In this document: positions 37,009 through 38,343 of the stretch, in pieces
How positions within the stretch are numbered: position 1 is the first letter of the stretch
Layout of the letters: each line of letters opens with the position of its first letter
Source of the DNA: Blastococcus saxobsidens
GTDB taxonomy: Bacteria; Actinomycetota; Actinomycetes; Mycobacteriales; Geodermatophilaceae
Length of the DNA: 64,000 bases
Direction of reading: 5' to 3'
NCBI RefSeq assembly: GCF_010682065.1
Contig: NZ_JAAGWG010000002.1
Location: forward strand, 1 to 64,000
Notes under the pieces: generated by a model
What the model was told of the DNA's origin: nothing
The model's input: the letters and a program-made list of their open reading frames with translations, nothing else
Databases searched by the model: none
Position numbers and translations under genes: made by a program

Positions 37009-38343
37009 TCAGCGCTTCGGGCCGATGCCCTGCGAGTTGAGGCCGTCGATGATCCGAGCGGACTCCTCGAAGCCGATCACCACGATGGCGTCGGGGTTGA
37101 GGTCGACCATCTGCTGCACCTCGGCGTCGAAGTTCGCCGCCGTGGGGTCGTAGACGACCAGCTCGATGCTGTCCTCGGCCAGACCGCTGGACACCAGGTT
37201 GTCGACGGTGCCCTCGGCCAGACCCGTGCCGTAGGAGTCGTTCCGGGCCAGGATCCCGACGGTGTTGGCGCCGTCGTTGATGATCAGGTCCGAGAGCGCC
37301 CGCGACTGCAGGGTGTCCGGCGGAGCGGTCCGGAAGTACAGACCGTTGTCGTTGTAGTTGGTGAACTCGTCGGACGTGTTGGCCGGCGAGATCTGGACGA
37401 CACCGGCGCCGGTGATCTTGTCGATGACCGTGCGGGTGACGGCCGAGGAGGCCGCACCGACGATCACGTCGACGTTCTGCTGCAGCAGGGCGTCGACCGA
37501 CTGGGTGGCGATGTCGGTGGAGGTGTCACCGGAGTCGCGCTGGATGAGCTCCACCGGGACACCGAGGACGCCACCGGCGGCGTTGATCTCCTGGACGGCC
37601 AGCTCGGCGCCCGCGATCTCCGGAGGGCCGAGGAAGGCCAGGTCACCGGTCTGCGGCAGCAGCGTGCCGACCACCAGCGGGTCGGCCGCGGTGGCGCCGG
37701 GGGCGGCGGGAGCCGGGCCCTCGTCGGAGGCGGCGTTGGCCTCGTCACCGGCGAGCTCGAACTGGGTGTCGTCGGAGGCGATCGCGTTGTCCGGGCCGAA
37801 CTGCAGGATGCCGAAGCTCGCCACCGAGGGCTCGCCGGCCTCGGCGAACGCCAGCGGGCCGGAGACGCCGTCGTAGTCGGGGTTGCCCCCACCGTCGACG
37901 ATCTCCTTGCAGGAGGCGAAGTCCTCGCAGGTGTCCCCGCCGAAGGTCACGCCGTTGATGTAGGGCGCGAACACGGCCGGGTCGGTGCTGCCGGCCAGCT
38001 GCGAGGCGACCGCCGCGATGAGGACGGCGTCGTAGGTCTCACCGGCGTAGTTGAAGTCCTGCAGATCGGGGTCGATCTCCAGGAGCCGGTTGGTGAACTC
38101 GTCGCCGAGGTCGGTGAGCGGGGTGGTGCCCTTCATGCCGGCGAGGGCGCCCTCATCGGTGAAGGACTCACCGAGCGCGTTGCCCATGTTGCCGTCGGTG
38201 CCGTAGACGTTGACCTGCTTCTCGCCGCTGTCGCCGCCGCTGTCTCCGGTGTCGCCGCCGGCATCGCCGCCACCGCAGGCGGTGAGGGCGAGGAGGGCGG
38301 CACCGGTCACGGCGATGCCTCGGGCAGTGGTGCCAGTGCGCAT
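37009..38343 (-). CDS. Liv-type substrate-binding lipoprotein, apparently circularly permuted
   Basis: This 444-residue protein should be the solute receptor for the adjacent Liv importer. It has a lipoprotein signal (ALLALTAC, Cys23) and a Gly/Asp-rich tether to about 40. Normally the mature protein would then begin with the LVVGTLLPQTGDLAFLGPP block. Here that block begins only at residue 223, runs through QISPANTSDEF (317-327) and ARNDSYGTGLAEG (366-378), and ends at ARIIDGLNSQGIGPKR (429-444). Residues 42-196 (VNVYGTDGNMGNALGES through YDGVSGPLAFAEAG) correspond to what normally follows GIGP. An Ala/Pro/Glu-rich linker (about 197-221) joins the halves. ATG has GGGAG seven bases upstream. 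Confidence 0.88.
   Translation of the reverse strand: MRTGTTARGIAVTGAALLALTACGGGDAGGDTGDSGGDSGEKQVNVYGTDGNMGNALGESFTDEGALAGMKGTTPLTDLGDEFTNRLLEIDPDLQDFNYAGETYDAVLIAAVASQLAGSTDPAVFAPYINGVTFGGDTCEDFASCKEIVDGGGNPDYDGVSGPLAFAEAGEPSVASFGILQFGPDNAIASDDTQFELAGDEANAASDEGPAPAAPGATAADPLVVGTLLPQTGDLAFLGPPEIAGAELAVQEINAAGGVLGVPVELIQRDSGDTSTDIATQSVDALLQQNVDVIVGAASSAVTRTVIDKITGAGVVQISPANTSDEFTNYNDNGLYFRTAPPDTLQSRALSDLIINDGANTVGILARNDSYGTGLAEGTVDNLVSSGLAEDSIELVVYDPTAANFDAEVQQMVDLNPDAIVVIGFEESARIIDGLNSQGIGPKR

Follow-up and report, generated by a model that had tools for sequence, protein, structure and literature searches.

The first 64,000 bp of contig NZ_JAAGWG010000002.1 of Blastococcus saxobsidens (assembly GCF_010682065.1), referred to here as the window, contain a gene at 37,009 bp–38,343 bp for a Liv/HAAT-type binding lipoprotein whose sequence blocks stand in an unusual order. 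The question raised by this locus is whether the two halves of the receptor have been exchanged by circular permutation, as a first-pass annotation made from the window sequence had proposed, and, if so, how and how often such an exchange has taken place.

Order of the two halves of the receptor

The open reading frame (ORF) was on the minus strand, running from an ATG at 38,343 bp to a stop codon at 37,009 bp (coding 37,012 bp–38,343 bp), and its product was 444 amino acids long. An N-terminal signal peptide with the lipobox LTAC (residues 20–23; 38,275 bp–38,286 bp) predicts a lipoprotein anchored at Cys23, a residue that was invariant in an alignment of 48 homologues (the window protein and 47 chosen from 361 protein ids). 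The lipobox was followed by a low-complexity Gly/Asp/Ser tether (residues 24–43; 38,215 bp–38,274 bp) and then by residues 44–199 (37,747 bp–38,214 bp), which correspond to the second part of receptors with the ordinary, native order; this part opened with VNVYGTDGN (residues 44–52), the block that follows the GIGP motif in Liv/HAAT receptors. An Ala/Pro/Glu linker near residues 200–222 (37,678 bp–37,746 bp) appears, from the sequence and a structural model, to join the old C-terminus to the old N-terminus. Residues 223–444 (37,012 bp–37,677 bp) correspond to the first part of native-order receptors, beginning with LVVGTLLPQTGDLAFLGPP, the block with which the mature domain ordinarily starts, and ending at the C-terminus in GIGPKR. 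The first-pass annotation had read these blocks, the linker, the lipobox with Cys23 and the terminal GIGP correctly. S300, T323, Y371, D50 and Y99 were also invariant in the 48-row alignment and, read by eye, aligned to S79, T102, Y150, E226 and Y276 of leucine-binding protein, which we take to be ligand-site residues.

Pfam Peripla_BP_6 (PF13458) matched residues 223–443 only, at profile positions 2–218 of 343 and 118 bits (cut-off 31.7). After rotation of the protein this span became 2–313 of 343 at 126.6 bits (+8.6), and the span for ANF_receptor was extended from 6–191 to 6–350 of 353, at 87.2 bits compared to 82.1 bits (+5.1); at the level of profile matching the gain in bits is small and the gain in span is large and telling. 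When a profile was made solely from 69 native-order relatives, residues 40–194 aligned to its positions 223–376 (independent E-value 4e-52) and residues 220–443 to its positions 4–225 (1e-104), values at which chance is excluded as the source of the match. The window protein did not follow the whole HAAT profile in collinear order, and neither Pfam nor the native-only profile gave the whole-length collinear alignment that had been named in advance as the case against permutation. The score with the NCBIfam LivK-type subfamily NF011933 was 68 bits, below the curated cut-off of 477. Annotation hides the permutation, as the source records listed were named as ordinary substrate-binding proteins or hypothetical proteins and the Pfam profile spans only half of the chain.

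A search of the window protein against its relatives revealed two kinds of match: end-to-end matches, and matches in which residues ~200–443 came first and ~45–200 followed. In the second kind both halves were within one reading frame, swapped relative to the window protein; these native-order proteins shared 44–67% identity with it in one half and 31–58% in the other, the one at residues 44–199; for this latter half two of the three sets of sorted loci gave 35–57% and the third gave the full 31–58%. The order of the halves was read from the DNA only at retrieved loci, where ORFs were sorted by half order. All 82 distinct permuted proteins gave two segments in swapped order with the native-only profile, a count that describes only the cleanness of the pattern because the proteins had been sorted by order beforehand. 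The 221 matching reading frames, duplicate loci included, comprised 114 with a single collinear match and 107 with a swapped one; none was mixed or repeated. Because relatives have both halves in the opposite arrangement within a single reading frame, circular permutation is shown, and the window protein is, on this comparison of sequences, a circularly permuted Liv/HAAT-type binding lipoprotein.

The first-pass annotation had proposed looking for the same order in related genomes. At E 1e-40, 95 of 112 Geodermatophilaceae genomes (the window's included) had a match and 17 had none. The match ran end to end with the permuted gene in 92 of the 112, of which 12 were single-contig genomes, and was partial in three (G083, G090 and, at a contig edge, G084). 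This agreement rules out an assembly error, which had also been raised. The gene was free of internal stop codons in the family survey, and all 19 loci among the matches listed were in records of Blastococcus, Modestobacter and Geodermatophilus; the closest relative with an organism name among these matches was from B. saxobsidens (95% identical). Seven genomes of the window's genus (G001, G009, G010, G011, G013, G019 and G022) had no match at E 1e-40: four gave weak partial hits only, and the other three nothing even at E 0.001; the permuted receptor gene can therefore be absent. In three genomes of the family (G105, G102 and G121; loci L074, L075 and L086) the permuted receptor was accompanied by a paralogue in native order that had a separate livHMGF set.

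Likely recurrence of the permutation, and two cut sites

Permuted receptors were assigned to several groups. Group A comprised the window's family and one genome of another family (L064). Group B was family f16 (the relatives of its G038 member were all Micromonospora among the matches listed) and group C1 families f39 and f49 (those of the f49 member were uncultured Actinomycetota among the matches listed). Group C2 was found in at least nine of the 147 genomes of one genus, 82 of which matched; 16 others that were read had native order. Group D consisted of two sets from other classes of the phylum, f68 (two genomes) and f81 with f122 (four genomes). As only the best few candidates per genome were scored (four in the wider searches, up to 11 in the C2 genus and up to 15 in the window's family) and some lists were partial, the counts of permuted genomes are lower bounds.

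Comparison of the chain ends revealed two cut sites, whose profile positions were taken from the 11 rows displayed. At site 1 (groups A, B, C1 and C2) the chain started immediately ahead of the YGTDGN or YxVDGN strand, and it finished directly behind GIGP or the motif aligned with it (native profile 221–227 of 381). At site 2 (group D) this strand instead remained at the C-terminus (L171 ended in VYGVDGNMGNALAENFEAGT), with the chain starting near LAGMKGTTPL (native profile 238–247). The two sites were ~20 residues apart, in loops on either side of one strand; judged by alignment to leucine-binding protein, both lie in lobe 2. The differing cut sites provide evidence for independent events that needs no tree.

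A tree of 105 rows was made with the parts set in native order; it included 16 of the permuted group A and B rows and omitted L122, L144 and L152. The tree had five changes between native and permuted order, and well-supported branches forced five (bootstrap range 5–5). Quicker trees of the first native part alone (six changes, four forced by well-supported branches) and of the second alone (five changes, three forced) were also made, and a tree from which group B and the residues close to the cuts had been removed had five changes, all forced. In the 105-row tree one clade (support 100/99) united C2 with fifteen native proteins from the same genus. A single origin of all permuted rows was rejected, with a log-likelihood 249 lower (p 6e-5); holding all permuted rows together in an earlier 74-row tree had lowered it by 153 (p 4e-118). 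Single origins of the site-1 rows (231 lower, p 1e-42) and of C1 with C2 (55 lower, p 1e-4) were likewise rejected. We put weight on the likelihood differences because very small p values vary widely, as the values for all permuted rows in the two trees illustrate. Outgroup rooting with three distant paralogues was dropped, since its branches reached 9 changes per column and it misplaced one of the paralogues, and the later trees were therefore unrooted. Taken from these trees, at least five changes of order are likely. This recurrence is the larger and surprising finding; the single-window view of the first-pass annotation could reveal neither it nor the second cut site.

Locus, origin and competing explanations

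Domain hits confirmed the earlier observation that the receptor gene adjoins livHMGF. On the plus strand were genes for a LivH-type permease with a CarboxypepD_reg-like domain in front (32,497 bp–33,981 bp; PF02653, PF13620), a LivM-type permease (33,985 bp–34,983 bp; PF02653), a LivG-type ATPase (34,973 bp–35,959 bp; PF00005, PF12399) and a LivF-type ATPase (35,956 bp–36,837 bp; PF00005), the last convergent with the receptor gene. A response regulator with an ANTAR domain was encoded upstream of the receptor gene on the minus strand (38,578 bp–39,177 bp; PF00072, PF03861), and the flanks, also on the minus strand, were the DNA polymerase I gene polA (29,243 bp–32,002 bp; PF00476) and the pyruvate kinase gene pyk (42,198 bp–43,625 bp; PF00224). 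The ANTAR regulator, the receptor, livFGMH on the opposite strand and polA followed in that order in all 19 named loci, and pyk stood ahead of the regulator in 18; the contig of the remaining one ended earlier. Visual inspection of 24 LivH frames showed a stretch resembling the CarboxypepD_reg-like domain ahead of the permease core in most of them, beside native and permuted receptors alike; it may be a docking site.

Native-order relatives were found at the same place: L066–L073, for instance, had liv genes and the regulator as neighbours, and in L199 and L200 polA was nearby as well; L198 had the same genes in a different order and L197 had no visible regulator. The permuted groups C1 and C2 were at this locus too (L185–L189 and L204), although the regulator was not seen in L186. 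As native and permuted forms occupy the same locus, the permuted gene took the native gene's place. In group B the permuted receptor stood alone at all eight loci (L056–L063), with no liv genes within 5 kb, as did a second permuted copy in a genome of the window's family (L081). The site-2 groups (L193–L196) adjoined liv genes, with no regulator or polA in the DNA examined; L192, also of site 2, was a short contig.

The first-pass annotation had suggested tandem duplication of the gene with loss of the outer parts. The linker of C2, LDYITGQI...PKPGDGVLTVGTLLP, resembled native tails (VKYIAGEV, VEYIAGNI) joined to tether ends such as EPKGDGTLTFGTLLP, and a linker of one D set (FRQAEIS...) showed the same pattern against the native tail FRLAEL; by eye the likeness of the group A linker to an old tail and tether end was less clear. 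Tandem native copies were present at the corresponding locus in three genomes, chosen because each had two hits, and were 80%, 82% and 72% identical. Linker likeness and tandem copies thus point to duplication and trimming and bear out the suggestion to that extent; it is not proven, and because no fused tandem intermediate was found among the long reading frames searched the route is one that we infer. Two tandem receptor genes, each with signal, N half and C half, would have fused, copy 1 retaining the signal, tether and second half and copy 2 the old tether end and first half. At least five such events are likely to have taken place in Actinomycetota, each cutting in one of the two loops that flank the same strand. 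Native-order sisters of group A (L066–L071, L095 and L098) carried two Cys residues, one located in the tether and the second within FVCYPDKG or the corresponding segment, both lacking in the permuted proteins displayed; judging by these residues, it is possible that a disulfide was lost with the permutation.

We are confident that the permuted receptor beside livHMGF is likely to be its ligand-binding receptor and probably arose by tandem duplication and trimming. An AlphaFold2 model of the whole protein had a predicted local distance difference test score (pLDDT) of 85.4 and a predicted template modelling score of 0.83; the linker blocks had pLDDT 86–89 and residues 1–39 less than 50. The first part modelled alone was poor and structural support for this part was weak; the lack of strong matches is uninformative either way. 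Both halves would fold as one ordinary two-lobed flytrap, in which the linker, running from the old C-terminus in lobe 2 to the old N-terminus in lobe 1, would make a fourth hinge crossing. The membrane tether would now enter lobe 2 just before the strand with the presumed ligand-contacting Asp50; ligand would close the lobes and the loaded receptor would dock on LivHM as usual.

Some results weigh against a count of five independent events. Holding the two D sets together gave a p of 0.032 only, and five events become four if this test is distrusted; in addition, the group definitions followed an initial inspection of the data, which weakens all p values. A common origin of groups A and B is possible, as holding them together was not rejected (log-likelihood cost 1.04, p 0.34) and their linkers share AGDE-like motifs. 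The change counts are independent of the root and do not distinguish gains from reversals, so that one ancient permutation followed by repeated reversions to native order has to be considered. We regard this as improbable: the all-permuted grouping was rejected throughout, the cut sites differ, and the Pfam family and the solved HAAT receptors are in native order, so reversion would need the same rare event backwards. Transfer of a permuted gene, for its part, would not nest it among native genes in the gene tree.

Independent permutation also has to be set against readings in which the window receptor is not an ordinary permuted transport receptor. The window's genome is a 77-contig assembly and the first reading could not exclude an artefact; however, an artefact or a decaying gene has practically no probability given the order shared across the family, including its single-contig genomes, the absence of internal stops, the conserved residues and a dN/dS of 0.145 between the window gene and its nearest relative, that of B. 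saxobsidens (among six pairs compared, the ratio climbed to 0.60 for the furthest apart, a distance at which silent-site changes in DNA of this kind are not estimated reliably). With an ANTAR response regulator directly upstream and AmiC among the structural matches, the receptor could be a sensor for that regulator, in the way that AmiC serves AmiR. This seems very unlikely, as the regulator carries a receiver domain of its own, the receptor bears a lipobox, and livHMGF flanks the receptor–regulator pair in many genomes, whether the receptor is native or permuted. Unlikely too, if somewhat less so, is a swapped dimer or partner chains in place of halves that pair within one chain: the poor model of the first part alone would agree with it, but the whole-chain model was confident, linker included, and the permuted receptor TpMglB-2 of Treponema is reported to behave as a monomer (PMC4990184).

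On balance we favour repeated invention of a permuted amino-acid receptor by Actinomycetota, with at least five independent duplicate-and-trim events in two adjacent loops, several of them in-place replacements beside polA, livHMGF and the ANTAR regulator. Natural circular permutation is usually rare, old and between distant proteins. If the reading is true, permutation has a hot spot in this fold and locus, possibly because a tether moved to lobe 2 alters the docking of the receptor on the importer. The origin and effects of the permutation are directly testable, since receptors of both orders occur within one genus and share one syntenic locus, and candidate tandem intermediates are present in relatives. 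Type I receptors serve as biosensor scaffolds, and nature has apparently tried two workable cut sites.

Comparison with known systems

No report of a permuted Liv/HAAT receptor or of recurrent permutation in binding proteins was found among the papers listed in searches of the open PMC literature, which leaves most subscription journals outside. Canonical LivJ/LivK receptors (PF13458) are homologous to the window protein in both halves, share its livHMGF locus and have the same presumed ligand-site positions; the window protein differs in its swapped halves, in the linker between the old termini and in a tether at the start of the second half. The permuted GTPases cpRAS and YRG resemble the present case in being two different permutations of one fold, but they are separate GTPase families whose scattered distribution is explained by losses (PMC2430557), with no repeated swaps at one locus among close relatives. 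The closest parallel is TpMglB-2 (Tp0684), a tethered, circularly permuted Type I binding lipoprotein, proposed as Type Ic, that binds glucose and changes conformation on ligand (PMC4990184); the fourth hinge crossing solved in it is predicted for the window protein, homologues occur in many species, and its authors suggest that the topology is favoured by tethering. TpMglB-2 is cut in the N lobe, its first three strands having moved to the C-terminus, whereas the window protein is cut past mid-chain, at native profile 221–227; TpMglB-2 has a sugar as its ligand, whereas the window protein is of the HAAT sequence family; and the passages of PMC4990184 consulted describe no recurrence within one family. 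A permuted Type I receptor is thus already known with another cut, and it is the recurrence within a receptor family that is the surprising part.
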